Source: Daphnia pulex
Taxonomy: Eukaryota > Arthropoda > Branchiopoda > Diplostraca > Daphniidae
Assembly: GCF_021134715.1 (NCBI RefSeq)
Contig: NC_060023.1
Location: 9,176,001-9,240,000, forward strand
DNA length: 64,000 bases
Direction of reading: 5' to 3'
Of the stretch, positions 8,359-64,000 are shown piece by piece (position 1 is the stretch's first letter; each line of letters starts with the position of its first letter). The translations under genes and the position numbers were made by a program. The notes beneath the pieces are model-generated. The model made no database searches. It was not told the origin of the DNA and saw only the letters and a program-made list of their open reading frames with translations.

Positions 8359-8404
8359 CACAGCCAATCCAACGAAATATGTGAATTGCGAATCAGATTG
8401 AAAA

Positions 8405-9155: not shown

Positions 9156-9425
9156 GGCGGGACTAAAACACGGTGAGGGAGATATTACCATGGCAACGGC
9201 GGACTAAAAACATATATCCTCATCATTTCATCATGAGATGTTTCCTTTTGCATCCGTACGCATATCCGAATCAATACCGACACCACACAGAGTAGCAGTA
9301 CTCAACCAGTGATCTATTTTGATTAAACCATATTTCTCCAGTCGATATTATCTCCTAGAAATCCAATATCTCAAGCTGATTTTGGCTTGTGCTGTCGCGG
9401 CTTACTGATTCTAGTGAAATAAAGA

Positions 9426-10933: not shown

Positions 10934-11513
10934 TGATCGCAAAGGCGTTATTAAATAGTTTTCAAATTCATAATTTTATTGCCAGTTGTAGTTTACACTC
11001 GGCCTTTGTTCATACTTGTAAAAATTTTATAGCTGTTAGGTGCAATACAGAAAGTACAAATAAAAGTGGCAGGTGAATTACACCGTAAATTAAATTATAA
11101 ATGAGTTTGGATTGGGTCGGTGCAATATGTTTTATCCGGGATTGCATTACTTTAAACCTTCTATATGCGTGCTAACCTTTTCAACAATCAAGAGAGAAGC
11201 GCTTGACATTTCCATCGACGAAGGATGCATCCTATTAGTCCCAATGAATTATATGGAACTAGTATATCTACGCAGTTACCGCGGAAACCAATTTCTCAAG
11301 TAGCGCAACACATATATGCACGCATGAAATTAATAATAAACTCTGATCCAGCCGATGTAGGCTGAACGCTTACTGTAGGCGCAACACTTTTTCAGTTTTC
11401 CTCACTCATGCAATGTAGCATGACTTCGCAAATAACTGTCAACTATAAGTAAAATATAAACTTTGTTGTAACTTGTTATTATAGAGGAAGCCTTCATCAC
11501 CCAAGTCGTTACG

Positions 11514-12971
11514 ATGGTCGTTACAAAAGTGGTCCCTGTCGTTCCAGTCGTCCCACCGCGTAACATTTCTTGGTGCTTTAAACCTCTGTTTTTGTGGATG
11601 CGCGTTTTAGGGATAGAACTCGATCCTACTAGCAATCCATATCGTCAAATTATCTTTATCTACGGTCTGATCATGTTACTATTATGTCAGTGGGCCAGCA
11701 TCAACTTATCTGCTAACAGCAATATCTTCATTGTTTCCTCGCCTATAACCGAGCGATCAAACAATTCAAATATTTCAACGTCCACTACACTTGGCTGGAA
11801 TTTAAAAATCGATGTCATCAATAATTGTTCTTTAATGGCCATTATTTGCCCAGCCTTTTTTTACATCGCCCACAGTCAGCGATGGCTTCGTTTACTGGAC
11901 GTCATGAAGAAATTTGATTTCGCTTATTGTAGATTCAACCGGGGCGAACGAGTGCGTCACTTCGTATTCATCGGATTCGTACCCATTCTATTGGTATAAA
12001 TTAAATAAAGTTGCCATTAATTGAGTCGCCGTTAAAATCGTTTTACTTCTTTATAGGAAATCGGAATAATGATTTACAACTTTAAAACATCTATACAAAG
12101 ATTGCCGCATGTATCCGCGTACCAGATTTATCTGATTTCATTCGCTTATTTTGCCAAGGTATTGCCAATCAGCGCATTAGTTTTATTCGGCTCTTTGGTT
12201 TGGCAGAGTGCCGCCTTTTACGGAGAAATTCAACAGGATGTTGAGAGGAAATTGAAGCTGAAGAAGGAAAACATTGGCAAATGGAAGCGCAGTCTAAATT
12301 TAGTCGACGAATTAGTCGACCGAATTAACGAATGTTTCGGCCTGATCCTGTTGGTGTCGATAGCCCACTTTTTCGTCGAGTTTATTGCACGTTCGTTTTA
12401 CATCATCAGCTGCTTTTTAAGGAACCAACTGGATTTGATTGACATCATAACCATGTCATCAAGGATTTTTCTTCTGTGGTACTTCGTCTGTTGTCCCTCA
12501 AAAGTTCAGGACAACGTATAGGCTAAGAATTTGATGTTACTTTTCACTTCTTATTTAGATCATTTTAGAATGCTTACATTTATTATTTGTTTGCTTTTAG
12601 GCTGTCCAAGTGGCCATTTCCCTTCGTAAAGTCGATTACGTTGACATTCATCTGAAAAATGAAGTACGTTGCGAATTTTGTCGTAGAGTTAATAACTTTT
12701 AGCATAACATTAACCAGTGTGTTATAAAATCTTTATATTCCGAAAGATCTCTTTCTTAACAACGGACATAATTCAGAACCTACCCGGAGTTTCCGCCTTG
12801 GGATATTTTGAAGTCAACACTCAGTTAATACCAAAGGTTTGCATAAAAGATAAGAATTGGATCATCAGTGATGAAGCTTAATTCATTGCTGCTTTCTTGT
12901 AGTTGATTGCAACTACCTTGACATACCTGGTGATTCTCTGTCAGTTTCAAACTTCTGAAAATAATGATTGA
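11514..12971 (+). CDS. Gustatory receptor-like gene 2
   Basis: Exons 11514-11993, 12057-12515, 12601-12663, 12747-12836 and 12903-12971 join to 386 residues. The last exon encodes LTYLVILCQF, an exact match to the TYhhhhhQF receptor signature. The start (MVVTKVVPVVPVVPP...) is shared with gene 3 and aligns with the MVVEKVVP start of gene 4. The stretch from about 11851 to 12295, including intron 1, is almost identical to gene 3, although the segments on either side are clearly diverged. The upstream 400 bp also resemble the region upstream of gene 3, so the promoter was probably duplicated as well. Confidence 0.88.
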
Positions 12972-13753
12972 ATACTGCCAGGAATAGACCTGCAGTTCAG
13001 CAGCACTTCAAAATGTTGGGCTTTTTTGTCATATACTGCTTAATAGAGCTGTGTAAAAGCGTATAGTTTAGGGTGCCAATTTAGTACGGTATTTGGCGAG
13101 CGTCCTTTGGCCACCTCCTTTTTTATGCCACTATTTTTTAAGTGTACTGTATTGGAGAAATTAACTTGTTGGACCCATCTAGATTGTTAAGATGTTCACT
13201 GCTTGCTGATTAAATTTTTAACACCCCACTCCTGGCTTGCCCTATAACACGCCACCACAAACTCCATTTGAGATCAGAGATCAATAAATATTACTATCTA
13301 GCGCATATTTGCTTTCTTTCTCAGTATAAAAAAGAGCCAGAAAAGTACAAATAAAACTGGTGCAGGTTATAATTACTGCTGATGTATATCAATTAAATCA
13401 TGACATGATATTGGGTCAGTGCGCAGTATGTTTTATCCGAGCAATATGTTTTACTGCGCTTTGACCGTCAGTCCCAATGAATTACCATGCAAATATATCT
13501 ACGCAGTTACCGTGGAAACCAATTTCTCAAGTATATAGCGCAACACATGCACGCAGCATGAAATTAATAATAAACTTTGTGATTCAACCAATCCAACCTG
13601 AGTATGTCCGTTTGTCAATTGCCACACTTTTTCAGTTTTCATACCTCATGCAATGTAGCGTGACTATTGACTTCGCATATAACTGCTTTTCAGCTATAAG
13701 CAAAATATAAACGTTATAGCTTGTTATTATAGAGGAAGCCTTCAGCACCCAGG

Positions 13754-15203
13754 ATGGTCGTAACAAAAGTGGTCCCTGTCGTTCCAGTCGTCCCACCCCA
13801 TAACATTTCTTGGTGTTTGAAACCTCTGTTTATGTGGATGCGCGTTTTAGGGATAGAGCTCGATCCTACTAGCAATCCATATCGTCAAATTATCTTTTTC
13901 TACGGTCTTGTAATGTTATTATTATGTCAGTGGGCTAATCTAAGCTTAACTGCTAATTACTTTAAATTTTCCACGTCTTTACCGAACATGCAACCGAAGA
14001 ATTCAAATATGTTAAAATCCTCTACATTTGTTTGGAATGTCACAATCGATGTCATCAATCATTTTTCTCTCATGAGCATTATTTGTCCAGCCTTTTTTTA
14101 CATCGCCCACAGTCAGCGATGGCTTCGTCTACTGGACGTCATGAAGAAATTTGATTTCGCTTATTGTAGATTCAACCGGGGCGAACGAGTGCGTCACTTC
14201 GTATTCGTCGGATTCGTACCCATTCTATTGGTATAAATTAAATAAAGTTGCCATTAATTGAGTCGCCGTTAAAATCGTTTTACTTCTCTATAGGAAATCG
14301 GAATAATGATTTACAACTTTAAAACATCTATACAAAGATTGCCGCATGTATCCGCGTACCAGATTTATCTGATTTCATTCGCTTATTTTGCCAAGGTATT
14401 GCCAATCAGCGCATTAGTTTTATTCGGCTCTTTGGTTTGGCAGAGTGCCGCCTTTTACGGAGAAATTCAACAGGATGTTGAGAGGAAATTGAAGATGAAG
14501 AAGGAAAACATTGGCAAATGGAAGCGCAGTCTGTCGCTAGTCGACGAATTAGTCGACCGAATCAACGATTGTTTTGGACTGATCCTGTTGGTGTCGATAG
14601 CCCACTTTTTTGTCGAGTTTATTGCACGTTCATTCTATCTCGTCAGCAGCCTTTTAAGGAACCAACTACATTTGATTGACATCATATCCATGTCATCGAG
14701 GATCTTTCTTCTGTGGTACTTCGTCTGCTGTCCGGCAAAATTACATAACGACGTATGATATTTTAATTCTTAATCTTTATCAACTTAATTACGTCATTAA
14801 GAAATGCGTGTGTCATTTGTTTGCTCTCAGGCTGTCCAAGTGGCAATTTCACTTCGTAAAATCGATCACGTTGATATTAATCTGAAAAATCAAGTACGTA
14901 TGGTGTATATTTTGTCGCTTATTTCGAAGCTCATTTTTATCATAACAACGGTACGTGTGTTAATCTTTCCGAAAGATCTCTTTCTTAACAGCGGACATAA
15001 TTCAGAGCCTGCCCAGAATTTCCGCCTTGGGATATTTCGAAGTCAACGTTCAGTTAATACCAAAGGTTTGCATAATAAAAGATAAGAATTGCGTCATCAG
15101 TGAAAATTATAATTTTAAATACGTTGTTTTCTTGTAGTTGATTGGAACAACTTTAACATACCTGGTGATTCTCTGTCAGTTTCAAAGTTCGGAAAATGGT
15201 TAA
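13754..15203 (+). CDS. Gustatory receptor-like gene 3
   Basis: Exons 13754-14230, 14294-14752, 14831-14893, 14976-15065 and 15138-15203 join to 384 residues, ending with LTYLVILCQFQSSENG. It is the closest paralogue of gene 2. The most divergent part is the predicted first extracellular loop (about residues 65-90), where ligand-related change would be expected. The conserved parts are exon 2 and the short 3' exons. All introns are phase 0 and canonical. Confidence 0.88.
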
Positions 15204-15600
15204 GACTGAATAATGACAGAAATACCTTGGAGTTCAGCATTTCATAATTTTTTTGTATAGTTTCCCATATTCTTTTCATACTGCATGCTATAGCTACTTA
15301 GCGTTGTAGTTTAAGTATAGTTAATTTATCATCTGCCTATCTCCTTTTCTCTGCAACTATTTCTCAAGAATCGTGGGTGTAGATGGCCATCATATTCGGC
15401 CTGTCTAGCCTGTACGTCTAAATAATGCACTTACGTCAAAAACCAATTTTTCAAGCGACGCATCCATAAAATAATCAATAAACTCTGAATCAACTGTTAT
15501 GTATGCCCGTTACAACTTATATTGTCTCTCGAGTAACAGTTGGTATCATGCAAAGTGAAGGTTGTGTTGGTGTTATAGATTGCGACATATCATACCCAGA

Positions 15601-17070
15601 ATGGTCGTTGAAAAAGTCGTTCCAGCCGAACCGCCGTGCAGGCCTTGCTGTAATATTTCTTGGTGTTTTAAACCTCTGTTTATATGGATGCGCATTTTAG
15701 GGATAGAACTAAACCCTATTTGTAATCCATTTCGCCAAATTACTTGCTTTTACGGACTTTTAATATTATTCACATGCCAGTGGGCTAGCATCACCTTAAC
15801 GGCTTATGGCAGTTTCCATAATTTTACCTTGCCCGTAACTAGCCGATCAAAGAATTCAAATATCTCAAAATCCGTTACATTTGGCTGGAATGTCTGGATT
15901 GATGTCATCAATCATTTCACTCTCATGGGTGTTGTTTGCCCAGCTTTTTTTTACATCGCCCACAGTCAGCGATGGCTTCATCTTTTGGAAGTCATGAAGA
16001 ACTTTCATTTGGCTTATTTTCAACGCAATCGTGACAAAATTGGTCGCAGCTTCGCATTCGTCGGATTCGTTCCCATTCTGTCTGTAAGTATATAGCCCTG
16101 GTTTATCTTTTATCCAATACATTCAAATCGTTTTACTTCTTTACAGGAAATCGGACTAATGATTTACAACCTCAAAACCAAAATAACAAATTTGCCGCAT
16201 GCATCCGCCTTCCAAATTTCCGTTTGTTTTTTCTCTTATTTCGCCAAAATAGTGCCAATCAGTGCGTTAGTTTTATTTTGCTCGGTTACTTGGCAAAGTG
16301 CCGCCTTTTACGGGGTGATTCAACAGGATGTTGAGAGGAACTTGTCTAATTTGAAGAAGGAAAACATCCGCAAATGGAAGCGCAGTCTGTCGCTAGTCGA
16401 CGAATTAGTCGATCGAATTAACGAATGTTTTGGACTGATCCTGTTGGTGTCGATCGCCCATTTTTCCGTCGAGTTTATTGCACGTTCGTTTTATTTCGTC
16501 AGCAGCATTTTAAGTCACCAATTGGAAGTCGTTTCAATCATATGCATGTCGTCAAGGATTTCTCTTCTCTGGTTCATCGTCTATTGTCCCGCAAAAGTCC
16601 ATCAAAGCGTAAGTTATTTTTTAAAAAGAAAACTTATATAAATAAACTTTTATGGGTTTATAGGAGGATGCCTGTGGCTATTTATATTTTTCTCTCAGGC
16701 TTTTCAGGTGGCAATTTCCCTTCATAAAATCGACCGTGTTGATGCTAATCTGAGAAAACAAGTACGTCATATTCATTTTTATTACACTAGCGCAAACAAT
16801 TTGTAGAGCGTAACGAAGCGTATTATGTTATCACTTACCGTTAGGTCTCTTTCTTAGCAATGGACATCATTCAGAATTTACCTTGTATTTCCGCCTTGGA
16901 TTATTTCGATGTCAATGTCCAGTTAATCCCAAAGGTTCGTATCAAATAAAATTAAAACAATATGTGTCGCATCTCATATAGTGAAAAATGTTTTCTTATA
17001 GCTGATTGGAACAACTTTAACATACCTGGGAATTCTCTATCAGTTTCAAACTTCGGAAACTAATGATTGA
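15601..17070 (+). CDS. Gustatory receptor-like gene 4
   Basis: Exons 15601-16083, 16147-16608, 16699-16761, 16845-16934 and 17002-17070 join to 388 residues, ending with LTYLGILYQFQTSETND. The frame stays open 13 codons upstream of 15601. I chose the ATG at 15601 because MVVEKVVP aligns with MVVTKVVP in genes 2 and 3. Compared with those, exon 2 has one extra residue (NLSNLKKENIRKWKR). The spacer to gene 3 is under 400 bp. Confidence 0.87.
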
Positions 17071-17416
17071 ACCTGAACAGAATGTCTTGTACAGTTAGGC
17101 ATCTAAAAAATTGGTTTTAATTTTCTATAATCTAGAAATAATGGCTTTAGTATAACTTATTAATTGCCTTATAACTTGTCCATACCACACCTTCCTCTAT
17201 ACAAGCCCCCGCAAAGTCCATTCGAGATATCAGAAATCAATAAACGAACACGCTAACATCACAAATGCTTTTACCAAATTGTCATGCAGACCACTTCGGC
17301 AACTACTGGATAATACACGTCTATTTTCGTTTCCCCCCGTGCACTCTTGAAGTTTTAAGAAATAAGAATTCTGTATGCTTTCATTGATATCACAGAGTAG
17401 CTATCAACTGGTTTGA

Positions 17417-18845
17417 ATGCATTTAGTAGTCCTCTCGCCCTTAAAAAACAATTTTGTTGCCACCGATCCGGTTGCTGGAATTTCCTGGTGTTTCCGACCT
17501 CTTTTCATTTGGATGAGAATCCTGGGAATCGATCTGTATCCTACCAGCCGGAAATCAATAAGACGCTATGGCCTTGTCATGCTGTTGCTGGGCACCTGGG
17601 CCCATATCGATAACAACTTGGATACGTTTCGAAAATTGTTGGCCAACAAATTGTCCGCGTCCGCCACCTTAGACTGGAATATCGGGATAGACTACGTGAA
17701 TAATTTTTGTTTCATAGTTTTAGTTTCCCATCAAATCTTTTACGTCGCTAGAAACCAATGGCAGCTTCTGTGGGGTCACATCGTCAAATTCGATTCAGAT
17801 TATTGCCGATTATTCAATCACAAATTGTTGCGCAAATTATTGCTCATTGGTTTCTTGTCTCCGCTGCTGGTGGGTATATAAATAGTTATAGACGTTTTTA
17901 ATATTTTCACTTCACTGTTTATTATGCATTTATTTATCTAGGAAATCTGTAACACACTCTTCATTTTTTCGGCGATCCTTCCGGACTTTGCCAAGGATTC
18001 CACTTACCGCAAATGCATCACCGTATTAGCGTTCTTCTCTAAGATATTGCCAATCAGCGCGCTAGTTTTGTATTGCTCTGTGGCCTGGCTGAGTTCCTTA
18101 TTTTACGAGGAAATTCGAAAAGACATCTACTACACGAAGGTAATCAACGAGAAAAATATCCGCAAGTGGAAGTGCAGCCTGGTTCTGGCCGGAGAAGTTG
18201 TCGATCGCATCAACGACACTTTCGGGCTGATCCTTTTGATATCCGTCACCCACTTCTTTGTCGATTTGATTTCCCACTTGTTCTACACTTGGAATCATAT
18301 TTCGAGCTTGACTCGACTAGGGGCAACAATATATTTAGTCAATGTCCTACGAAAATTAGTTTTCTTCTGGTTCATCGTCTGGACTCCGACTGAAATTTAT
18401 CGCAAAGTATGTTCATTTTCAGGTAGAAATGTCAAATAAGTAGCTATTTTGATTGCAGGCCTTCAAGGTGGTTATTTTATTGCGAAAAATCAACTGTGTC
18501 CAATTCCATCTTCAAAAACAAGTTCGTACAATATTTTATTTTGCATGGTAAAGTATTACTATAGATGTGTTTAAGTCTGTTAATGTTATTTAAGGTACAT
18601 TTTTTAGCGCTGGACACGTTCAAAAATTTGCCACAAATATCTTCACTGGGCTACTTTGACGTCAACTTTCGGCTGCTGCCAAAGGTAAAAGTCGATATCA
18701 GATGAGCGATTTTCATTTTAGTGTCTAATTATTTCAGATTGTATTATTACATCGATTTAGTTTATTCGTTTCGCAGTTGATAGGAACGATACTAACGTAT
18801 CTCGTCATCCTCTACCAGTTTCAGTCGTCAGAGAAAAAGCCCTGA
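17417..18845 (+). CDS. Gustatory receptor-like gene 5
   Basis: Exons 17417-17869, 17942-18406, 18459-18521, 18595-18684 and 18777-18845 join to 379 residues. The protein starts MHLVVLSPLKNN, then GISWCFRPLFIWMRILGI, and ends LTYLVILYQFQSSEKKP. It is closer to gene 1 in exon 2 (both share KCSLVLAGEVVD) than to genes 2-4, so genes 1 and 5 form a pair that flanks the younger 2-4 group. The exon 1 donor is GTGGGT rather than GTAAGT-like. It is the last member of the plus-strand array. Confidence 0.86.
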
Positions 18846-38318: not shown

Positions 38319-39772
38319 TTATAGATTCTTTTCGGACGCTTGAAATTGGCAGAGAATAAAGAAATAAGTTAAAGTTGTCCCAATCAGCTGTCGAAATTTA
38401 AAAAAAATTGTTTGAAAAGTCGCCCTAAAATACGTAGAAAACACGGTGTTTTTTTGGTGTGAAAATTTACCTGCGGAAAGAGTCTCTTACTAATGTTGAA
38501 GTAACCGCTGGCGCTAATTTGTGGAATCGACCGTACCATATCCAGAATGAGAAATTTCATCTGTCAAGGAATAAGAGTAGTTTTTTAAACGGGATATATT
38601 GCGGTGTGTCTGGGTACAATATTTTGATACCTCCAGTTGAAATTTCTTAAATTTTTCGTCACTTGTGAACCTCAACATTTCTTGGAGAAAGTCTTTGGCC
38701 TGATGTGAGATAACAACAATTAGATTGATACAGTGAACTCTAAGTTAGAATTGACCATTTACCTTGCAACGGATGCGATCTGCGGAAAAAAACAACTGAG
38801 TTGCATGAATAAGGGAAAAAGATAAAAATGCAAAATCATTAATGTTGATTTCAATAGAAAATAAATAGAAGCTTGAATTAATATTGGCAACAAAAACAAA
38901 GGTTGTGGATAGAAGCAGCATCCAGCCAAAACAGTGGTTGATGGCATCGACACTTTCACAGACTGCGATGTATTTGCGCTTTACAGTTTGTAGGAATAGG
39001 CTTAGATCTCGATCGTTGGCTAGTTCGATTTGAAAGAGTTCAATTTGCTTCTGGATCAACTCAAAGGCCAGAGAAGATGCGTAGCAGTGTATGGTGTATG
39101 CAACTAAGGCCGTCGCTGGATAAATAACCGATAGGGTTGACATGAAGGTGATAAATATGCGGCGAGGGGAAGCCCCTTGGCTTGCCTGCTGAATCAGATT
39201 GACAACGGCTAATCCCAAAATCTATGTCAAAAACCCCAAAATTAAAGTGTGAGCTTTATAGTCATTTAGAATAGAGGTACCAATAAGATGGCGTAAATCA
39301 CAGAAAATGAAGACATTTGACGGATTCGAACGTAATTTTCCTCTGTGAAGATAATTTTAAAATGCTGAAAAGACTTTTTGAGCCTGTTCCATCGTAGGCG
39401 GATGAGAGTCAACAACATGAAATGAATTCCGACTCCATAGATAGCGTAGTTCATAAAATCAACAATCCAGTTCCAGGTGGCAGTGATTGTGCCGTAAATC
39501 AATTCGCCGCTTTCTTGATTATTGACTTGCTTCCATTCGTAGAGCACGAAATGTAAAATGTCACACTGGCTGATTGCGTGGGACGAAAAACAGACGCCCC
39601 CGTAAACGTACATCCACCATCGATGACGTCGGTTATCCCCGTCCGGCAAATCAACGCCTAGAATCCGAATCCATAAAATTAATGGACGGATACTCCATTC
39701 CCAGCATTCAGCAGTTGGCAAAGTCTGCCGGTCTTTTGTCTGGTCTTTAGGTGAACTTACTTGGGTGGCCAT
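38319..39772 (-). CDS. Gustatory receptor-like gene 6 (minus-strand array)
   Basis: Exons 39281-39772, 38763-39221, 38631-38699, 38471-38560 and 38319-38387 join to 392 residues in phase 0. Landmarks are CWEWSIRPLILWIRILGVDL near the N-terminus, CFGWMLLLSTTFVFV in exon 2, and LTYFFILCQFQASEKNL at the end. LTYFFILCQF is an exact TYhhhhhQF receptor signature. Exon 3 is 69 bp here, against 63 bp in the plus-strand array, and exon 4 encodes IPQISASGYFNISKRLFPQ, a sequence pattern of this second subfamily. The gene is complete with canonical splice sites. Confidence 0.87.
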
Positions 39773-40185
39773 TACTGTTTGACTAAAAAAGCATGGGCGT
39801 CATTTTCAGGAAGTGACACATTCCTATTTGTATTTCTTTTGTTTTTCTCCGGTCCCAAGGCCATCGATAAAGTTGAGTAATTGAATCAACATTTTGGTGA
39901 AGTGTTGGTTCGCCAAAATATAATTGTTTATCGATCCGCAATGTTCTGTAGTGTCATTAGTATCCATTAAATTTTAGTTCGATATCGGGACTTCGAGAGC
40001 CATATATTTAAAAAAGTGTTTTCATCAAGACACCAGTACAAATAGAATGGAATTACCGCGGGAGAAATAAAATTATGTGATACAAATCAAGGAAATTTAA
40101 TGAATAGATTCCTGTCTTGAATAGCTTTTCTAGCGAAAATAATTGCGTTGATTGCGATGATAACTTAGGTAAGATGATTAATATG

Positions 40186-41693
40186 TTACTTATAATATGA
40201 TTCATCATCTTCAGGATCAAGTTTCTTTTCGGAAGCCTTAAACTGGTGTAGAATGAAAAAGTAAGTTAAAGTCGTTCCAATCACCTATCCCAATAACATA
40301 AACTGTGTTAGAAAATTGAGTGAAGCATTTCTCTTCTATAAATTAACAAATTTACTTGAGGGAAAAGCCTTTTGTTCACTTTGAAGTAATCCTTGGCGCT
40401 GATTTGTGGAATCGTTTCCACCATATCCACTATAAGAAATTCCACCTGCCAAAATGACGATAAGAATAAGAATATAGCTGATTTTGTGGCACAATTAAGC
40501 TGGATGCATCCAGATGCCTTTTGTACCTCCAATTCGTATCCCTTTAACGGCTCATCCGCAAATTTCAGCCTCATCAGTTCTTTGATCATGTTTTCAGCCT
40601 ACGAAAAACTACACAATTTATTTCATCCTCATACGTATCTGCTTAAAAGGGTCACTACCTTGTTGGAAATGTGATCTGCAGCAAAGCAAATGAGAGGCAG
40701 ATGAACGAGAGCAAATGCTAAAAACGAAATATCCGCTACGGTCGTGTGATCCGGTAGGCCAAACACTGCGTAGCTTGCGTTGATAACAACCACAAAGAAA
40801 AAAGTCATAGAGAAAAGCAGCATCCAGCCAAAAGTGTTATTGATGGAATCGACCGTATCGCAAGCAATGATGTGTTTTTGTTTGAAAACACTCAACAAGA
40901 GGCTGACGTCATGATTTGGACCGTTGATTAGCTCAATTTCATAGCGCTTAATTTCCTTCCGAATCTCCTCAAAGGCTAGAGACGACGCGTAGCAGTGGAT
41001 AGCAAATATTACTATGGCTGTCAAAGGATAAGTTATTGATAGGACTGCCGTCATTTTGATAAAGACGCTGTGAGAAACTGAAGTTCCGGACGGCAAGGCG
41101 TAATCCGTTGAAGCAGCAAGTAGTGTAGAAATCTGTATGGAACAAAATCGAATTGTTGAAATGAAATTATTGACTTCCCATATCGTTCTTACCAGCACGA
41201 TAACGTAAATGACACCCCAATAGGAAATTTTGCGTATTCCAATGTAATTTTCTTCCGTGAAAATGGCGTTCAAACGTTGAAAAATTTCCATCGTATCGAT
41301 CCATTGGAAACGGATGACAGTGAGCAGCACCAGGTGAATTCCAACTCCATGAATAGTGTAATTTGTAAAATCAATAATCCAGTTCCAGTTTGCGGTTGTT
41401 GTGCCAAAGCCTAGGTCGTCGGTTTGGTATAGAAAAACTTGTAACCCCGTATTGAATAAATAGCGTAGAATATTAATCTGGCAAGAGGCGTGGAGCAAAA
41501 AGCAAAAGGCCCTGTAAACGGAAATATGCCATCGGTTGCGTTGGGTGGATGGAGTTGAAGTGTCCGGAAGATCCACGCCAATGATGCGGAGCCAGATAAT
41601 CAAAGGGCGAATACTCCATGCCCAACACGTAGTTGCAGGTTGTTGGATTATTGGTATCTCTTCTGAAAACCAACTTACTCGGATGGCCATCAC
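40186..41693 (-). CDS. Gustatory receptor-like gene 7
   Basis: Exons 41193-41693, 40659-41132, 40527-40598, 40356-40445 and 40186-40284 join to 411 residues. The protein starts MMAIRVSWFSEE (either Met may be used) and carries CWAWSIRPLIIWLRIIGVDL. It ends with LTYFFILHQFKASEKK plus an acidic tail (DPEDDESYYK) that is longer than in its neighbours. All five exons match genes 6, 8 and 9 in phase and nearly in length. The four genes are closely spaced and all read leftwards. Confidence 0.88.
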
Positions 41694-42073
41694 AGTTCGA
41701 CTAATATTACCACTAACACTTTTAAAAGCTTACACCAATCAAATTGCACTTTAAGTCAGCTAGCTTTTTGTGTTGACTCAGACTGAATAAAGCAATCGAG
41801 TAATTGACTTCCACAGCTGTCATCGGTTCATCAGTAGGAATGAAAAAGTAATTAGATTATGTCGATAACTTTTTTTAATTATCATATAGCTGTTATAGTT
41901 ATTACAATAAGCGAAGCTCACGTGCGTAATAAGGACGCGTTCATTTTATTTGACAGTTTGATCAAAAGTTTCATTTGCCTTTATTTAACATTTTTTTCGT
42001 ACAGAATAGGACGGGCTAACTACTGCCTGACAACTATTGTTGAAACTCGCGTAAGAATAATCACGACCTCCTG

Positions 42074-43581
42074 TCAAAATGATTGAACAGGACTCGCTTT
42101 CTTTTCGGATTCTTCGAACTGGCAAAGAATAAAGAAATAAGTTGCCGTTGTTCCAATCACCTGTTAAATGAAAACGCACTTTTTTAGAAGTGTCATTGAA
42201 CGATAAAATATTCATTGCCTGCGGGATTAGTCTCTTATTGACGTTGAAGCAACCGTTGGCGCTGATTTGCGGGATTTCATGCAACATGTCCGATATTAGA
42301 TATTCCATCTATCAAAAACTAAAAGTAGTTAATATCCTTTCACATATATTTGAACCGAAAGCGGAACACCGCCACATCTGGAAGCTAATTGCTAACTTAC
42401 CTCTATTTGATATTCCTTATTCGAGATTTTATCACATTTGTACCTCAACAGATCTCCGATCATTTCTTCTGCCTGACAAATAGCGCAACAATTTGATTTA
42501 ATTCTAAGATGTCTTATTTAAATTTGATAATGTCTTTGCATGTAGTACGTTATTGGTAATGTGATCTGCGGCGAAACAGACGAGAGTCAAGTGAACTAGG
42601 GCAAATAATAAAAACACCAAATCCCCTGCAGTTATCTGCTTATCCAGGGAGAAAACGACGTAGCTTGCATTAATGATAGCCATGAAGAAAAAGGTCGTAG
42701 ACAGGAGCAGCATCCAGCCAAAAGTGTGGTTGATTCCATCGACAGTGTCAGAGGCCAATATGAATCTATTTTTCAAAGTAAGCAATAAAATCCTGACGTC
42801 GCGACCTCGACCGTTCCTTAGCTGAATTGCACAGCGCTTGATTTTTGTGCGGATTAATGCGTATGCAACAGACGATGCGTAGCAGTGGACAGCAAATAGA
42901 ACTATAGTTGTCAAAGGATAAATGATTGATAAGGTCGAAGTAATAGTGATAAAGATGCTGTGAATAGATGAAGATCCTGCAGCCAAGTGGTAGTCCGTTA
43001 CTGAGGCAGCAACAAGTCCGGAAATCTATTTCAAATGGAATATTCGCAATTGAGATGAGTCACAAAAATCTTTTTCGATGAAACCTCCTTACCATTAAAA
43101 TGACGTAAGCTACGCCAAACAAAGACAATCTGCGTATTTGAATATAATTTGCATCGGGAAATTCCTCTTGCAATCGCTGGAAAATCTTCATTAGATCCTT
43201 CCACTGTGCCTGTACAACAGTCACCAATATGACGTGAACTCCGATTCCGTGGGCGACGTAATTGATGAAATCAATAGTCCAGTTCCAGGTAGCAGTTGTC
43301 GTGACAAATAGCAGCCCGTACGATTGTTCGAGCGAGACGTGTACAGTCTGTGTGCTATACAAGTAGTATATGCTGTTGATTTCACCGGATATGTGCAGCA
43401 GAAAACAAAAGATTCCGTAGGCAACTGTCAGCCGTTGATGTGGATCTGATGATGGTGAAACATCTGAGAGATCCACGCCTAGAATACGTGCCCAAATGAT
43501 TAAAGGACGAATACTCCATGCCCAGCCAATAATTTGTTGTTCGGACGTCTCTTCTGAAAATGAACTTGTGCGGGTAGACAT
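42074..43581 (-). CDS. Gustatory receptor-like gene 8
   Basis: Exons 43093-43581, 42549-43025, 42401-42472, 42219-42308 and 42074-42160 join to 404 residues, ending ATYFFILCQFEESEKKASPVQSF. The frame stays open upstream to 43650, but I chose the start at 43581 (MSTRTSSFSEE), which aligns with the starts of genes 6, 7 and 9. The donor after exon 4 reads CAG|GCAATG, so the last intron must be a GC-AG intron if the model is right. Using it keeps exon 4 at the fixed 90 bp and the 3' exon in frame. The array otherwise uses GT donors. Confidence 0.83.
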
Positions 43582-43937
43582 AACGGTTGGACTAACAAAA
43601 GCGATATGTAGCTCATCATCATGCGATGTTATATAAAGGGTCACTGCCATGTCCTTTGCGGTCTTTTGTTGTTTTCACTTTTAAAAAATTGAATTCTTTT
43701 CCAACTGTTGAGTAATTGAATGGATCAGTTTATTATGTTCCCATCAAATTACTCCGCGTACTCCAAGTACCATGCCGTGTGAGTGTTTGCTTGTGTCAAG
43801 TTAACAAATATAATAACAGAAGTTCTTGTTCAAATGTCACCGGGTTCTTTTAGAAATCACTTAACCGGCTTATGCTATTTCTCCAGAACTATACACAAAG
43901 TTTTCTGGTTCAATTTAAATTATCAGGCGTGTTTGGC

Positions 43938-45422
43938 TTAATTTTCAGTCAGGGTCACATTCTTTTCTGACGCTTCAAATTGGAAGAGAATAAAGAAATA
44001 AGTCAGCGATGTCCCAATCACCTGCAAACAAATATTTAGTTTAAAACGTGAAAAATTGTAAACTAATTGGATACGACGACCTGGGGCAAAAGCTTCTTAC
44101 TGACATTAAAGCAACCGTTAGCGCTGATTTTTGGAACTGTTAGTGACATCTCCGAAATCAGAGAATTCATCTGAAAATTAGCACGATAATTACTAATCTT
44201 ATTGTAATCAGGTATGACAACAATTATACAAACCAGCTGCATTTGAGATCCGTTCAACGTTTCATAGGACTGAAGACGGAAGAGTTCTTTGATGGCGTCT
44301 TCGGCCTTTAGAAAAGCAATAAAAGAATCCACCTTGAACTCACCATATAAATTCAAATGCGTTTCTACCTTTATCTGGACGCGATCCGCCGTGAAGCACA
44401 CGAAAATTAGATGAATGACAGTAAAAGTAGTAAAAGCTACGTCTGGCATGGAAATAATGTTGTCCAGTCCAAACAAATAAAAGCTCGAGTTAATAACGGC
44501 CAAATAGAAAAAAGTTATTGATAGCAGGAGAATCCATCCGAAACAATGGTTGATGCTGTCAGCTGTTTTACAAGCCAGAATGTGTCGCTGTTTGAAGGTA
44601 AGCATTAAAAAACGGACATCCTGATCTCGACCGTTCATTAGCTGAATTTCATTACGGTGAATTTCAGACTGGACTGACTCGAATAGGAGAGACGACACAT
44701 AGCAGTGGATAGCGAATACAACCAAAGCTGTCAAAGGATAAATGATTGAAATGGTGGACATGCAGCTTATGAAAATGCGATGTCCACTTGTAGTCCCCGC
44801 AGCCAGGTGGTGTCCCAAGGAAACAGAGATAAGTCCTAAAATCTGGGTTACAATATTGGGCAGTAAAATCGTCTTAAAGCAAACAAATGCGGCACGGAAC
44901 AATTTCTCATCCATCAATAAAAAAAATACATACCAACAAAATCACATAAGCAACTCCGTAGGTAGCTACTTTTCGAATTCGAATGTATCTTTCATCAGAG
45001 AACATATCCTCTGAGCGACGAAAGGTTTCCATTAAATTGATCCATCGCTTCCGGATGACAGTCAGCATTAACACATGAGTTCCAATTCCATGAACGGCGT
45101 AATTGATAAAATCGATAATAGAATTCCAGGTAGCGGTTGATGTTTCAAAATTTAATCCTCCACTTTGTTCGAGAGAACCTATCTTCAGTTTACCTTGCAA
45201 GTAATACAAAATATCAATCTGGCCAGCCAAATGACACAAGAGGCAAAAACCGCCATAAGCAATAATCAGCCAATGATGACGTTTGGCGGATGAATTCGAA
45301 ATATCCGATAAGTTTACACCTAGAATTCTGGTCCAAATGATCAACGGAAAAATACTCCAAGCCCAGCATTTAGTTTGCTGAACTTGTGGCTCATCTAAGG
45401 ACAAACCTACTCGGATGGCCAT
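43938..45422 (-). CDS. Gustatory receptor-like gene 9
   Basis: Exons 44934-45422, 44369-44842, 44234-44305, 44081-44170 and 43938-44021 join to 402 residues. The start MAIRVGLSLDEP parallels gene 7; an open extension to 45554 is probably untranslated. The protein carries CWAWSIFPLIIWTRILGVNL and ends LTYFFILFQFEASEKNVTLTEN. Intron 2 (44306-44368) is 63 bp, has no in-frame stop, and is a multiple of three, so unspliced RNA would still be read through. It is the 5'-most gene of the minus array. Confidence 0.86.
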
Positions 45423-46073
45423 TGCGGTTAGACTATAATGTTTGGCCGCTTTTGCTATGTTTTCGGTATTGTACAATCCGTTAATGTCATCAAAAGTAAT
45501 ATCGATCAATACAAAGTATATTAAGATTAATGGAAGATTAATTGACACATGCATCAGTTGAATTGGAAAAGATAAAATTTTGTCTTTTTTAATAATGAAC
45601 AGTGTTATTGATTATTGACGGCAAACGAATGTTCTGATGTTCATAAAATTACTCGTAGATCGATCGGTTGTCTGATCAAGCATTTTATTGGCGTATAGCG
45701 TCGGCTATTTAAAGACTTAAACCATTTAAAAATAAAAATAGCTTTATAGTATACCCTCTAATGCAATTTGAAGGTGAGACGACTTGGATGGAAACTGTGG
45801 TACATTTTTTGGGCAATGAACCCGGAAGGTTCTCAACGAACTGCGTCCGCGTTAATAGAATAGTGCAAAAGGACACGAAAATATCGTGCACTGTGTTCAT
45901 TTTTGAGCGGTAGATGTCGTCGTTTGAAAAAGCAGACGGCATTTTGAAAAAAAAATTCCTTTCGAAAAAAAAAAGAAAAAAGAAACTCATCAAATGTCAA
46001 ATACTGACATTTAAGTTTTAGCAGCAGTTACATCTACGTTCTACCCAGTTCCAGGAATTTTATTTTTGCAGAA

Positions 46074-56633: not shown

Positions 56634-57191
56634 TCAGAGTTGAATGATGACTGGCTCGTGTCCGGTTGCCTTGAGAAATACTTTGAATCCGGCGACGGTG
56701 ATGCTAGTCGTGGCCTCGTTGGTCATTGGGTGAAAGTTCAAATAAGAATCTTGACCGTCGCTGTTCTTTTCGCTCCAAAGTTGGCCGTCCAAAACAAAAG
56801 TGACTCGATGCTCCTGGGCGTCGTTCAACAAGGCGAAAGGCGTCACCGATCCTTGCTGCACGCCTAGACTCGCTTCGAGCGTCTCGGCGTCAGCGAATCG
56901 GAGCTCTTTGGCGCCAATAACTTTGGAAATTTGGCCAAGTTGGACGGTGGCGTCGTGACGAGCGGTGATGAGGTACAATTTGCTCGTTTTCTTGTCCTTC
57001 ACCAAAAGATTCTTGGCGTGAAAGCCGACTAAATGCGAAATATGTTCCATCATAGCTGCCACGGTAAAGACGGCCGGATGCTCGACGGTCCGAAAAGCGA
57101 TGCCAAGTTCCAGTAGATATTTCTCCAAATTACTGCGCTTGCTGTCTGATGGCGACGTGGTAGCGTTCTGTTGACGTACAACAACAACATC
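56634..57191 (-). CDS. PRORSD1: PRORSD1-type prolyl-tRNA deacylase domain (YbaK/ProX family)
   Basis: One exon encodes up to 185 residues from the ATG at 57191, or 177 residues from a splice acceptor at 57167. The sequence contains VEHPAVFTVAAMMEHI, HAKNLLVKDKK, LRFADAE, TPFALL and LNFHPMTNEATT. These match the human PRORSD1 family along the whole length. Members of the YbaK/ProX superfamily hydrolyse wrongly charged aminoacyl-tRNA, classically Ala-tRNA(Pro); the Lys in NLLVKDKK is the conserved catalytic-site Lys. AIMP2 ends 75 bp upstream on the same strand, which leaves no room for an independent promoter. The acceptor at 57168-57169 is in phase with the last AIMP2 donor, so this may be the C-terminal domain of a fusion. 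Confidence 0.92.
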   Translation of the reverse strand, partial: DVVVVRQQNATTSPSDSKRSNLEKYLLELGIAFRTVEHPAVFTVAAMMEHISHLVGFHAKNLLVKDKKTSKLYLITARHDATVQLGQISKVIGAKELRFADAETLEASLGVQQGSVTPFALLNDAQEHRVTFVLDGQLWSEKNSDGQDSYLNFHPMTNEATTSITVAGFKVFLKATGHEPVIIQL

Positions 57192-57266
57192 CATAACATG
57201 ACGCGTGTGCGAATACATATCACAATCATCAATTCCCGGAAGAAGTAAATTTGTTTTTTCTGTTAT

Positions 57267-59066
57267 TCAATTTACCGCCTTTTTGACGGTGGATCGGCAA
57301 CGGTCCATCCAGGAGCGGATATGCGTGCCAATCTCCTTCTCCGTGCAAGAGTTCACCAACGCTGAATAGACTACAAAGTCTACTACTCCGACTTGGCTGC
57401 CTTCGAGAGATTTATTGGTGGAGAGAGTTCTTTCCAGTAATTGCAACGCAGCCGCCCGATCTCGTTTCAATCCTCGTGCTCCCAGGGGCGCAGAGCATTC
57501 CGTCAGGTCGAGATAGTGGTCGATTTGAGCAGCCTTCAACGGTTGGCTTTCGTAATCCAATAACCCAGGCAACAGTCTAGCCAAATATCGGGCAATATTG
57601 GCTTCTCCTTTAATGGCTACACCCTGAGATGAGGGTGACACCATAAGGGAAGGCTCTTCGCCATCATCTAGATTTGTAATAGTCAAATTATATTAGACAA
57701 CGAGCATTGATAAGGACAACAATGAAGACATACCTTTAATCCAGATTAGAGTTATCGCTACGTGAGCTTTGGATCGTTCAACACGTGAATCAGAGTATAC
57801 GAAAGATTTAAGAGTATCATCCAGTAGTTTGTGTCCAGCAACCGTCGAATGGACGTGCGTCCTGGCGTAGACGGACATGCCGAGCATTTCCATTCGTTGC
57901 TTCAACAGCGGCAGTGAATGCGGAGGATTAGATGGGCTAGCTTGGATCACCAAATCTTGGAAGTTTCGAACCTTGAAAAGATAATTAATTGGCTGATGTT
58001 ATTAAAACGTTATTGGGTTAGCTGCTGTTAGACATGCTAATATACAAACTGAAAACGGCGCACAGGCAAAAACAAGACAACTAAAAAACCTGATAAAAAG
58101 GATCAGGACTTATATTATTAATCCATGCTTACATCAAACGGTTATTTATGTGGGACCAGGATAATCTCACGCTGTTAGTCTGACTGGAATAATTGAGATG
58201 GAGTTAAAAAAAGAGATGCAATTTTGTCTCAAATTCGTTTAAAAAACATTCGGATTCTAAACTCGATTTTTTTTTACCCCTGATCCTACAATATCTGTCT
58301 TCTCAGTACAGCACGGGAGCTGCGGAGTAATGGGCACCTTGCCATTATTGTTATTATTGTTCAGTGCATAACTGATGCTTTGAATCTCATCATTGAGTTC
58401 TCTGATACGCTCCAGCAAGGACCTTTGCTGCAGTTGCAGAACAGTGGTACTGGATATACTCTAGTGGAGGGAATAAATTAAGGCAATTGCCTCAAAACAG
58501 TCAAAAGCAGATTTCAATGAAAAACCTGAGGGTCATCCATCAGCGCCAATCTCGACTTGAGCTCAAAGAGTGAAGTCATGAGGGAAGAAATACGAAGAAC
58601 CAGCAAATCCTGCTGGACTGCCAGTGTCTTGATAGTCAATGGTGGAGCCGGCTGCACCACAATAATCAATTTTTCCTAGTAAATGTAATAATGGCAGGAA
58701 TGAAACAAAAATTCTTACCCCAGCATCTACGAAGGAAGACAATTCAGACGCTGAACCAGTTTTAATTGCAGCAAGTTCAGATTGAAGTCTCTGAAGTCTG
58801 GAAGTGATCTCTGTCCAACGTTTTTCCAGCTCTTCCACCTCGCACTGTAATTACAAAAATATAAAGAAAGATGACAAAACGAACTTGTTATTTTTGAATT
58901 TTTTTACGTTGTTGGAAGTTGCGTCATTCTGAGTGTTTTCCCCAGTCCCGTCATTATTGGCAGCAATATTGTGATTAAAATGGTCACTGATTTTTTTCAT
59001 TTTATAGACACAACTCGGATGCGGAGTCTCCACTACCGACTTAAATAAAGGTTGCAGCTTGTACAT
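57267..59066 (-). CDS. AIMP2: AIMP2, scaffold of the multi-tRNA-synthetase complex
   Basis: Exons 58908-59066, 58719-58844, 58526-58651, 58278-58460, 57734-57971 and 57267-57667 (ending at TGA 57267-57269) join to 410 residues. The first exon starts MYKLQPLFK, typical of AIMP2 N-termini that bind lysyl-tRNA synthetase. Residues about 54-200 hold leucine-rich coiled-coil segments. The second half has LVIQASPSNPPHSLPLL, a thioredoxin-like fold region, and a GST-C domain with IKGEANIARYLARLLPG and VVDFVVYSALV. The protein ends WMDRCRSTVKKAVN, about where human AIMP2 ends. A GCG|GTAAAT donor lies nine bases before the stop. Splicing there to 57167 would replace VN with the PRORSD1 domain, giving 585 residues in one frame. 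AIMP2 organises cytosolic synthetases. Confidence 0.9.
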
Positions 59067-59352
59067 CCTACCTACGTATATTCTATTTAAAATTTAAAGG
59101 AGGAAATGAGAAGACTGCGATTGAATAGCTTCGAGCCTTAGAAATGTGGTCTATTTTTATCATGGCCTACTATAGTCACGGCCCATCATCGTACGCTTCT
59201 GTGTGGGACCAATTTTGGGTTCCCTGCCCCTTCCCTGTTGCCATAGTACATAGCCAGAGGGTCGTAAGTATCGGTTTTTGTTCCACATTTCCGCAGATTC
59301 TGTGTCTGGCTTGCATAGTGCTATGGTCAGAGTCGACTAAAAGTATGCGATT

Positions 59353-59418
59353 GACAGTCTAGTGGTTAAAGCGGTAGATTCCCACTAGAGTGGTATTAGG
59401 ATCAAATCTATGCAAGTC
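59353..59418 (+). repeat. tRNA-like segment, left arm of foldback element
   Basis: The A-box-like tagtggttaaagcgg (59360-59374 region) and the degenerate B-box ggatcaaatc (59399-59408) have tRNA-like spacing. It is not expected to fold into a working tRNA; it looks like a decayed tRNA-derived promoter. Confidence 0.5.
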
Positions 59419-59693
59419 ATAATCAATTTTTCATAATTTTTCCTTGTTTTTTCTTTATTTTTAAAGCGAATTAGATGGAATGCCTAGATTGTGAAAAAAT
59501 GCGAGTTTTTTCACATTATTTTCAACAAAATCTGAATTTGCTTTTTTTTCTAAGTCCTTGCCAAAGAAAACAAATTCAGATTTTGTTTTAAAAAATGTGA
59601 AAAAACTCGCATTTTTTACACAATCTAGGCATTCCATCTAATTCGCTTTAAAAATATAGAAAAAACAAGGAAAAATTATGAAAAATTGATTAT

Positions 59694-59760
59694 GACTTGC
59701 ATAGATTTGAACCTAACACCTCTAATGTGGGAATCCTCCGCTATACCCACTAGACTGTCC
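59694..59760 (-). repeat. tRNA-like segment, right arm of foldback element
   Basis: On the minus strand, tagtgggtatagcgg (59738-59752) and ggttcaaatc (59704-59713) match Pol III A and B boxes better than the left copy. Because of the inverted arms, the two would drive transcription toward each other. Confidence 0.5.
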
Positions 59761-60001
59761 TTCAATTGCATTTAATCGACTCTGACCATGCCTGGATGCA
59801 AGCCAGACACACAGGCATGGCGACTTAAGCCAAAAAATCCCAAAGGGTGGAAAGAATCTGCGGAAATGTGGAACAAAAACCGATACTTACGACCCTCTGG
59901 CTATGTACTATGGCAACAGGGAAGGGGCAGGGAACCTAAAATTGGTCCCACACAGAAGCGTACGATGATGGGCCGTGACTATAGTAGGCCATGATTTTTA
60001 T

Positions 60002-60859: not shown

Positions 60860-63800
60860 ATGTCGTCGAGAGGCGGTAGGAGACGCGGGAGGCCGCCTAA
60901 ATCATCTTATACAACACCACACTTCCTAAATTCCCGATCGAACGTTATCGAGAAGCCTAAATGGTTTTTGTCTCGTGATGGAGTGGCTAATGACAATGGT
61001 CCAACTGGGTCTAGAGCTAGTTCACCGGGAGGCAGTGTGGGGAGTTTCACACAACAATACAGTGCCAAAAAACATATATCAGTAACTCCATTCAAGAAAC
61101 GTGGAAGGAAAGCGGGTACAAGAGGCAACAGAGGTGGCAAAGCATATGTGCCTAGGCCTTCGTTGGTCATTACCAGGGGTAATGATTATCATTATGGCTC
61201 AGACTTTGACTCTGGTAGTGATTCTGATGGGCCTCCGAGCCAAGGAGAAGATGCAGAGTTGGATGTTGAGAGTGACGTGGACATACCAATTAGCGAGCCA
61301 GAGAGTGATGAACTGGATGATAATGCCTCAGATATCTCCATTTCTAATCAAAGTTCCTCAATGCGAAAAATTGTTGAATCCAGTATAAAGTCTATACCCA
61401 CTCCACTCCCTATTTGGCTCCAGTCCGATCAAGATTTACCAGTGTTGACTCTACCCAAATCTTCTGAAGACCTTCTCTTGCCTACACACCAAGTGCTACC
61501 TGCTTGCGCGATTTACGAAGTCCTACGCAAGTTTAGCAGTGAGGTTGGTTTGGTTTTTATTATGAATAATTTTCCCTGGCTAATCAATCTCTCTGCGTAG
61601 GTGAGGCTCTCTCCTTTTCGACTCGAGGATTTCATGGCCGCTCTTCAATCGGAAGAAATGACAACTCTTTTGGCGGAAGTCCATGTTCAACTCTTAAAGT
61701 CCATGCTTCGAGAGGAAGACGTACAACAAACTTGGTTTGGACCACTGGACCAGAAAGACAGCACAAATTCTGTGTTAAACTTTGCCGACACGCTGACGTG
61801 GCCAGAAGTCATGCGGATATACATGCAGAGTGACCCGACCTTTGCACCTGCACTCTCTTTACTTGAATCCTGCGAATATCCTTTTACTACCTGCGACGTC
61901 CGTCTGAACCTCCTCAAGTTTCTTACTGACCATTTTCTCTGCAATACGGCTGTCCGACAAGAGTTCCTTAGCGAGGGTAACATTTTTTAAATCATTTTTA
62001 TGGTTTTAAACATACTAATTCATCTTTCATCTATAGGAAACATCAAATATAATGACCATTGTCGAGTTTGCCACAAAGTTGGAGATTTGCTCTGCTGTGA
62101 GACATGTCCAGCCGTCTATCACCTCCACTGTCTCGACCCACCACTGGAGCACGTTCCAAACGAGGATTGGCAGTGTCCTATATGCACGGCCCAACTATGC
62201 AAAGGAGTAACTGATTGTATAAGTGATGTTGAACGATCCGGTTTTCTCTGCCGACAAGTAATTATCCTGAAACCCAATGCTGGCGGATGAATTCCTTTTT
62301 AATTCATGTATTCTCTTTTAGGAATCTTTGGGCTACGACCGACACGGACGCAAATACTGGTTTATTGCCAGACGGATCTTTGTCGAAGAAACTGGCAGCC
62401 GGGAAGAAATTGACGGAGATGAAGAAACTATTGCCGTGGAGGACCGTAAAACTTGGTACTACTCCAGTCCCCATCAGTTTGAACAGTTGCTTGCAGCTTT
62501 GGACAAGACAGATTTTGAAAAGGCTCTTTGTCAAGAACTATACAATCTAAGGCCGGAAATATTGAGGCAGATGGCTCTCACGATACAGCTGACAAACGAG
62601 AATAAAGGTGAATAATATTTTAATCTACCTAATTTTATTCATAAAAGACGCTAATCATTTGTTATACATTTTAGGCAACAACAAATCATATCTCGAACTT
62701 GACGAAGAAGTTGCAAGGGAGGCCTCTCAGACGGTCGTCAAAGTTGAAAAAGAAGAAGATGACGAGGCTGATGAGAACCTCTCTGTCGATGCAATCAAAA
62801 CAGAGAAGGAAAAAATAGAAACTGAGGAGGTTGTGGAAGAATGCGGTGTGGAAGTGGATGACGATTTCATGCAACAATTGCATGTGGAATCTGAACCTAA
62901 AGTAGAGCCTGAAGAAACGCCTACTACCGGTACACCAACAGCCAACGGAACTTACTCTACGCGCTCCAAAACCGGCACCATTGTGGCACGCACCTATGTC
63001 GACATGAAACGGCGAAATTTAACAACCAACGGTTCTGGCGGAGTCACTATTAAGGAGGAAAGAAGTGGCACCCCTACCAAATCAAAATCTCAATCTCCTT
63101 TACCCTCCGACGTCATCTTTAAATTGGGCATGGAAGGACGGCACAAGACGTACGTCAACCAGTACACGAGCAATCCCCTCGCGCTCAACAAAAACCAGGC
63201 AGCAGAGGAGAGAGACCGCAAGCGTTACTTGTCGCACAAGTTCTCCATTACGGGTTGCGGCGAGTTTAAGTGGTTGGGCAGTACATTTGGCAACCGCACT
63301 ATCATGCAGCAAACTGTTCGTTCCACCTTGCTCCAACTGCACTCTCAATTGCCTGCTATTTTCATGCATCCTAACTGGGCTGGGAGTATGCGAAAGTCTT
63401 GGATCCAAGCTGTCAATCAAAGCGTCTCGCCAACAGACCTCGGTCGTGTCCTCTCAATCCTGGTTGCGTGCATCCGCCCAGTTGTTTTCTCTTCCGTCTG
63501 GCACGAGTCACTTGGCCACATTCGACTTCAACGACAGACGGCCCTTGAACGTGAAGAGCGGAAGAAGGTGGACAAGAAGGAGAAGAAGGATAAAGAACTG
63601 GAAGAAGAGATGCATCGACTACACACCGTCCATTACACCAAAGGCCTCAAGCACCAGGTAATAGAAACTATTTTTATTTCTATTTGAATCCATATCTAAT
63701 TGGTTTCACATTGTTTTCGACAGATCTGGAAGCACAAAGGTGAAGAGTTTCGTCTTCACGGTCAATGGGGTTGGCTGTGGTTGTCCGCAACTCGCCTTTT

Positions 63801-64000
63801 ACGACGTCTTGATGCCAGGAAATGCGGATTAAGAGCTGGACCCTGGCGAATCATCACTTGTACTCAAGGTAATTTTGATGTTGCTTCGATTCTTTTGATG
63901 AATTTTAATGAATTGTATCATTAATAGAAGAAGGCTCGGAATCTCGCTACATTCAGTGTGATCCGGCATCTGGCGTCGAAATTTATGAAATCCCATCTTC
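60860..64000 (+). CDS. E(bx): BPTF / NURF301 (E(bx)), 5' part
   Basis: Seven exons are visible (60860-61543, 61601-61976, 62037-62257, 62322-62607, 62675-63657, 63724-63868, 63928 to beyond the edge), all in frame. The start MSSRGGRRRGRPPK has an AT-hook-like GRPP motif. An acidic region comes next, then a DDT domain at about residues 205-265 (LPACAIYEVLRKFSSEVRLS...LEDFMAAL). A PHD finger at about 361-405 (CRVCHKVGDLLCCETCPAVYHLHCL...WQCPICTA) is followed by the BPTF-specific GYDRHGRKYWFIARRIFVEE block. BPTF is the largest subunit of the NURF remodelling complex, which uses ISWI to slide nucleosomes. The C-terminal PHD and bromodomain that read H3K4me3 and acetyl-lysine would lie outside the window. 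Confidence 0.95.

Follow-up and report, generated by a model that had tools for sequence, protein, structure and literature searches.

AIMP2 and a ProXp-ala-type deacylase on one strand

The window, i.e., the whole 64,000-nucleotide stretch of Daphnia pulex DNA analysed here, corresponds to bases 9176001-9240000 of contig 7 in a genome of 133.19 Mb and 13 contigs. Its minus strand carries a gene for AIMP2, modelled from open frames and GT-AG ends with six exons (59066-57267) and encoding a 410-residue protein, followed by a deacylase of the ProXp-ala/PRORSD1 type. This adjacency on one strand had been proposed in the initial annotation, and both genes are identified by profile and structure-sequence matches. 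The exons are the following.

58908..59066, minus strand: AIMP2 exon 1, with the ATG at 59066 (open frame and GT-AG model)
58719..58844, minus strand: AIMP2 exon 2 (open frame and GT-AG model)
58526..58651, minus strand: AIMP2 exon 3, with a weak donor, CAG/GTTTTT (0.86)
58278..58460, minus strand: AIMP2 exon 4 (open frame and GT-AG model)
57734..57971, minus strand: AIMP2 exon 5, most of the thioredoxin-like part (PF18569 and alignment with AIMP2 5a34)
57267..57667, minus strand: AIMP2 exon 6, GST-C part, ending at TGA 57269-57267 unless spliced at 57275
56634..57167, minus strand: ProXp-ala/PRORSD1 deacylase exon as it would stand in a fusion, 177 codons plus stop (PF04073, alignments with 8huz and 5vxb)

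The AIMP2 protein matches Thioredoxin_16 (PF18569) at residues 201-292 with an E-value of 3e-21 and 75.8 bits vs. a cut-off of 26.5. Three solved sequences match it at E 0.01, all of them AIMP2, the best being 5a34 (E 3.5e-13). GST_C (PF00043) scores 12.7 bits, under its cut-off of 20.7, and the alignment with 5a34 spans the GST-C part up to residue 403 of 410. Like AIMP2/p38 of solved structure (5a34, 5a5h, 5y6l, 5a1n, 6iy6), the Daphnia protein combines a thioredoxin-like domain over the cut-off with a probable GST-C-like part. PF16780, presumably the family of the N-terminal LysRS-binding peptide, gives no match up to E 10 in this protein with HMMER, whose filters discard weak short matches. 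The N-terminus (MYKLQP...PSCVYKM) is taken here to resemble that of human AIMP2, and, by resemblance only, the N-terminal part may consist of a LysRS-binding peptide and a coiled coil. Five separate matches to AIMP2 exons are obtained in the whole-genome search.

The deacylase frame matches PF04073 (tRNA_edit) over profile positions 1-119 of 123, with an E-value of 2.6e-23 and 82.9 bits vs. a cut-off of 25.5. Its best solved relative is PRORSD1 8huz (E 2.7e-34), and Caulobacter ProXp-ala 5vxb matches with E 2.7e-28. Four residues were mapped by alignment with numbers taken from PMC11286415, the offset of 3 to the chain numbering being consistent for all of them. The columns of Caulobacter H23, K50, and H130 hold H, K, and H in the Daphnia deacylase, whereas the column of R80 (N86 in the human protein) holds a Glu, which differs from both. 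This last position is implicated in recognition of the discriminator base; it is not treated as strictly defining because R and N are each found in active members. The Daphnia domain is full-length like ProXp-ala/PRORSD1 (PF04073; 8huz, 5vxb) and has the aligned H, K, and H in common with it, but those proteins are freestanding, whereas the Daphnia domain would be the C-terminal part of AIMP2. In the whole-genome search, PF04073 is found in one place only, the deacylase beside AIMP2, with the proviso that an intron-split second gene might escape, as the search reads exons singly and scores the best candidates only.

That separately regulated genes lie together by chance, or that a single assembly is odd at this place, with no functional weight in either case, is the least probable explanation of such an arrangement. 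It is true that the arrangement is read in one genome only, and scans of stray viral and genome contigs for the same locus in other species confirmed no relative. However, the two intact frames, which have clear homology and share both strand and reading frame, are separated by 48 bp, and both genes belong to tRNA charging and editing.

The junction between the two genes

The AIMP2 stop codon is TGA 57269-57267. Directly after it begins the open deacylase frame, which continues that of the last AIMP2 exon with this single TGA in between and belongs to a stop-to-stop ORF of 210 codons (56637-57266); the deacylase stop lies at 56636-56634. The first in-frame ATG of the deacylase, at 57218, is the one found 48 bp past the AIMP2 stop, and a second occurs at 57194. 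A distance of 75 bp from the AIMP2 end to the deacylase ATG, as given initially, does not hold for the first ATG and fits the second (72 bp between, 75 including the stop codon).

A candidate intron is bounded by GT 57275-57274 and AG 57169-57168, at the positions and in the phase (0 for both) that had been annotated. The GT had been placed nine bases before the AIMP2 stop, which is right when counted to the end of the TGA, whereas it starts six bases ahead of this codon. In silico splicing gives exactly the 585 residues that had been announced, plus stop (64.6 kDa). The observation itself, made of adjacent genes, a phase-0 splice candidate, and a 585-residue joined frame, is thus confirmed. 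Two further features are defined by these coordinates.

57168..57275, minus strand: candidate intron, 108 nt, phase 0, GCG/GTAAAT...CAACAG/AAC, G+C 0.35, containing the AIMP2 stop
57168..57218, minus strand: leader of the deacylase frame if translated separately, 17 codons including ATGs 57218 and 57194 in frame; it lies outside the alignment with PRORSD1 and has a coding log-odds of -3.5

The candidate junction loses the final two AIMP2 residues and the 17-codon leader and leaves a linker of about 17 polar residues (STVKKA/NATTSPSDSKR). The similarity to PRORSD1 starts at residue 27 of the deacylase ORF, nine residues past the junction, so that the splice would cut just before the domain and leave this polar linker in front of it. 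If acceptor 57168 is in use, the first remaining in-frame ATG falls within the domain (VAAMMEH) and the start must, therefore, come from an upstream exon; the AIMP2 start would serve the deacylase exon in phase.

The splice sites were scored with a small gene finder trained on 264 kb of the same genome (the window and 20 stretches of 10 kb), in which the matrices are built from confident introns plus a prior (34 introns in full, 33 minus the candidate, and 26 minus the window). With matrices excluding the candidate, its donor reaches 5.89 and its acceptor 3.64, i.e., 9.53 together, and the five introns of AIMP2 itself score 11.7, 7.4, 4.4, 9.1, and 10.9. Still with the candidate left out, equal or better scores are reached by 0.6% of all GTs and 8.2% of all AGs, and a phase-compatible pair as good is encountered at 1303 of 63000 random positions (2.1%). 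This count becomes 1175/63000 (1.9%) with matrices lacking any window intron and 1611/63000 (2.6%) with a generic consensus. The splice sites alone thus give modest support to a fusion, at about the 2% level, judged after the fact. With matrices trained including the candidate, donor 57275 is the top GT within 57400-57150 (6.2 vs. 2.6 for the next) and acceptor 57168 the top AG within 57260-56950 (5.2 vs. 0.5 for the next).

The trained gene finder predicts the candidate intron even when the locus and the window introns are out of training. Under the same exclusions, a fusion is favored over a separate start by 3.8 nats (ATG 57218) and 1.2 nats (ATG 57194) with no new-gene cost, and by 13.4 and 10.7 nats, respectively, with a generic one. 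The best path, which holds the candidate intron, begins at 57887 and misses AIMP2 exons 1-4 and part of exon 5. With an extra penalty of 4 nats per intron, the fusion is dropped along with the rest of AIMP2, including the last accepted AIMP2 intron. Two other passes contained the candidate intron and were given no weight, namely an untrained one, in which introns were called almost everywhere, and a first self-training, in which the donor motif was blurred. Estimates of 433/126000 random positions and log-odds of +15.4 and +13.0 were set aside because their matrices had the candidate in training.

The sequence around the junction also differs in coding character. The deacylase exon has a coding log-odds of +50.4 (+39.2 with the locus out of training), and the 33 codons 57266-57168 score -10.9 (-11.2 with the locus out of training) and are non-coding in character. 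None of 6437 equal-length windows in other predicted exons scores as low, and the -3.5 of the 17-codon leader is matched or undercut in 24 of 7472 exon windows; the contrast flatters, as the comparison windows overlap and come from exons picked by the same model (genes scoring at least 20). The G+C content of the candidate intron (0.35) compares with 0.21-0.35 for the five AIMP2 introns and 0.51 for both flanking exons. In 57300-55900, none of 12 poly(A) hexamers falls into the gap that separates the AIMP2 stop from the start of the deacylase, the first one, AAGAAA at 56993, being within the deacylase. Past the deacylase only variant hexamers occur (AATATA at 56634, overlapping the stop codon, AATGAA at 56536, and AATACA at 56532), so that the actual polyadenylation site does not stand out there either.

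Some features count against a fusion. A G-rich tract precedes the acceptor (GTTGTTGTTGTACGTCAACAG), the AIMP2 end obtained without splicing resembles a natural protein terminus, and both the length of the candidate intron, divisible by three, and the shared frame of the genes are needless for splicing and required for readthrough.

A dicistronic mRNA, or two tightly packed genes, would have AIMP2 ending at TGA 57269-57267; the deacylase would start at ATG 57218 or 57194, from its own promoter or through reinitiation or internal entry. This arrangement is judged unlikely, even if the separate deacylase ORF is complete (194 aa, with its two early ATGs) and the unspliced AIMP2 end, RSTVKKAVN, is plausible as the end of a GST-C domain. 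A short AIMP2-like paralogue likewise stops, by eye, soon past the corresponding cysteine, and such pairs are not rare in flies, for which the available part of PMC4528330 counts 159 of them (release 6.04) and gives a polycistronic transcript for 2.5% of the protein-coding gene models. However, the two starts are unremarkable, as 62% and 70% of the ATGs on the minus strand of the window score as well, and the leader is non-coding in character, though start regions are naturally less typical. Moreover, a 3' UTR, joined by a promoter if the genes are separate, would have to fit into the 48 bp with none of the 12 hexamers, and two good in-phase splice sites would stay unexplained. As for a spliced-leader or operon explanation, the available part of PMC3796463 does not contain the word operon and holds nothing on Daphnia trans-splicing outside its own gene family.

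As the frame is shared and open past the TGA, stop-codon readthrough is formally possible too. An unspliced mRNA in which TGA 57269-57267 is sometimes decoded would give a 621-residue fusion (410 + 1 + 210 codons). The frames are identical with no second stop between them, and, as inferred in the available part of PMC5100048, Daphnia pulex has abundant readthrough. Nevertheless, this explanation appears very improbable, since the stretch past the stop has the negative coding scores given above (-10.9; -11.2), a shared frame with 16 stop-free codons up to an ATG is expected by chance at about 15% (a rough estimate), and the good splice sites would be a coincidence. The stop context is also TGA followed by A, whereas the leaky form is TGA-C.

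The arrangement is probably best explained by a spliced AIMP2–ProXp-ala fusion, to which a probability of about 0.6 is given. The initial annotation had proposed a fusion or a dicistronic mRNA without choosing. Splice strength, coding profile, G+C content, poly(A) hexamers, domain boundary, and the single PF04073 gene lean to the fusion; none of them proves it, and the gene finder abandons it under the harsher intron penalty. Domains, frames, splice-site quality, and the one PF04073 match of the genome search are direct observations.

A possible editing domain on the AIMP2 scaffold

In the spliced fusion, one gene would encode a 585-residue protein constituted of the AIMP2 N-terminal part, the thioredoxin-like and GST-C domains, a polar linker, and a complete ProXp-ala deacylase. 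Excision of the 108-nt phase-0 intron 57275-57168, and with it of the AIMP2 stop, would attach the seventh exon. If the intron is retained, plain 410-residue AIMP2 would result, so that splicing could control how much editor is tethered relative to plain scaffold. Through the fusion, the sole PF04073 editing domain found in the genome would be anchored on AIMP2, a scaffold of the multi-synthetase complex. Glu-ProRS binds human AIMP2 via its GST domain, and the structures 5a34, 5a5h, and 5y6l presumably show the AIMP2 GST domain against that of Glu-ProRS. In the complex, Glu-ProRS can load tRNA(Pro) wrongly with alanine. The Ala-tRNA(Pro) needing editing would arise beside its editor and be deacylated by the tethered domain as it is released. 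Splicing, entry of the protein into the complex, and deacylation are steps that we infer. It is a tentative proposal, put at somewhat below even odds, that in this animal lineage the sole Ala-tRNA(Pro) editor exists only or mainly as a covalent C-terminal domain of AIMP2, with proofreading inside the complex beside Glu-ProRS and retention of the 108-nt intron as the switch to plain AIMP2.

No AIMP2–ProXp-ala fusion was found described in the open-licence PMC literature, which agrees with the initial annotation, where no described AIMP2-PRORSD1 fusion was known. In the available part of PMC11286415, metazoan ProXp-ala is presented as freestanding and ProRS fusions as limited to protozoans and fungi, arthropods not being named there; the freestanding state counts against the fusion. 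According to the portion of PMC9425024 at hand, human ProXp-ala is reported not to assemble into the multi-synthetase complex, and Arabidopsis ProXp-ala is reported to be associated with the plant complex. The Arabidopsis protein resembles the Daphnia candidate as a deacylase reported in association with a complex; it differs by a C-terminal domain proper to it and by the lack of any fusion to a scaffold.

Other likenesses are described in the same part of PMC11286415. The Trypanosoma brucei MCP3 and the protozoan and fungal ProXp-ala-ProRS fusions are INS-superfamily Ala-tRNA(Pro) deacylases likewise held in a complex, one of them covalently. However, MCP3 belongs to the family as a separate and distant member, and the protozoan and fungal partner is ProRS, whereas the Daphnia partner would be the scaffold AIMP2. 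The ProRS-fused domain is said there to edit about five-fold faster than the free domain, and the trypanosome AlaRS, a complex member, to restrain MCP3, a promiscuous deacylase. The accessible text of PMC4394549 gives the Drosophila complex as the mammalian set, with nine synthetases and three auxiliary proteins, and mentions a complex described in Artemia too. AIMPs are non-enzyme scaffolds in the part of PMC7382500 available; compared with these known AIMPs, the Daphnia candidate fusion has an enzyme domain after the GST-C part.

If real, the fusion would make good sense biochemically and would rejoin a known theme, an editing domain held in a synthetase complex, by a new covalent route. A natural fusion in an animal would suggest that tethering of the editor to the complex has been favored again by a different route. 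It would also allow a compact test of two points, whether Ala-tRNA(Pro) is removed faster in proximity to Glu-ProRS, and whether cognate Ala-tRNA(Ala) is protected by complex members in the way that AlaRS protects it against MCP3. AIMP2, generally held to be a non-enzyme scaffold, would become an enzyme in this lineage.

Related copies and neighboring features

Besides the gene at the locus, the protein search reveals one further partial copy of the deacylase, of 204 bp and 87% DNA identity, on contig 10 (C10:6288710-6288913; L003 4211-4414). This copy derives from the 5' portion of the deacylase exon and is a dead relic, its frame being interrupted by a stop codon and shifted by one base. It displays an ATG opposite ACG 57158-57156 of the functional gene, roughly where PRORSD1 proteins begin. 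The ATG might go back to an independent start that the functional gene lost once AIMP2 had captured it, or might equally have arisen by chance as the copy decayed; the difference is ambiguous because the decaying copy probably holds most of the changes. The relic was rejected as evidence of a spliced mRNA, as its homology is limited to window positions 57160-56958. Indeed, the score of its upstream 600 bp against the unspliced upstream sequence is reached by 22 of 100 shuffles, and that of the 3 kb downstream by 19 of 100. The comparison with the spliced upstream sequence, one global alignment without a shuffle test, gives no match past the homologous block.

A shorter, single-exon relative of AIMP2 lies on contig 2 (C2:5962386-5962988, L012). 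This frame of 265 codons is devoid of the N-terminal part, matches PF18569 with E 5e-11, and has AIMP2 as its best solved relatives (E 1.2e-7), by which it is identified as a second, short AIMP2-like gene.

Upstream of AIMP2, 92 bp from its ATG, an 837-bp fold-back element occupies window positions 59159-59995. Its outer arms (143 nt) are 99% complementary, and its inner arms 87% (199 nt) and 91% (55 nt). Among 40 scored of 86 candidates, at least five further copies are nearly full-length (90-97% identical) and many others partial, the 84 match rows counting both strands of each place. Further upstream, a divergent gene on the plus strand (60860-63958) encodes an acidic N-terminal part and a PHD-finger-like stretch and presumably resembles a large chromatin-remodelling subunit.

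Elsewhere in the window, arrays of frames with repeated similar motifs of the FIWMRILGIELNP and LIIWIRILGVDLP types extend over 9423-18436 (plus strand) and 38748-45611 (minus strand); they are perhaps tandem membrane-receptor genes. Two frames on the plus strand, 6858-7361 and 8402-8875, share a closely similar RING-like motif, CAICLSSHVNKxTPxCGHVFCFRCLIDWC, in their first 60 residues and are probably a tandem duplicate.
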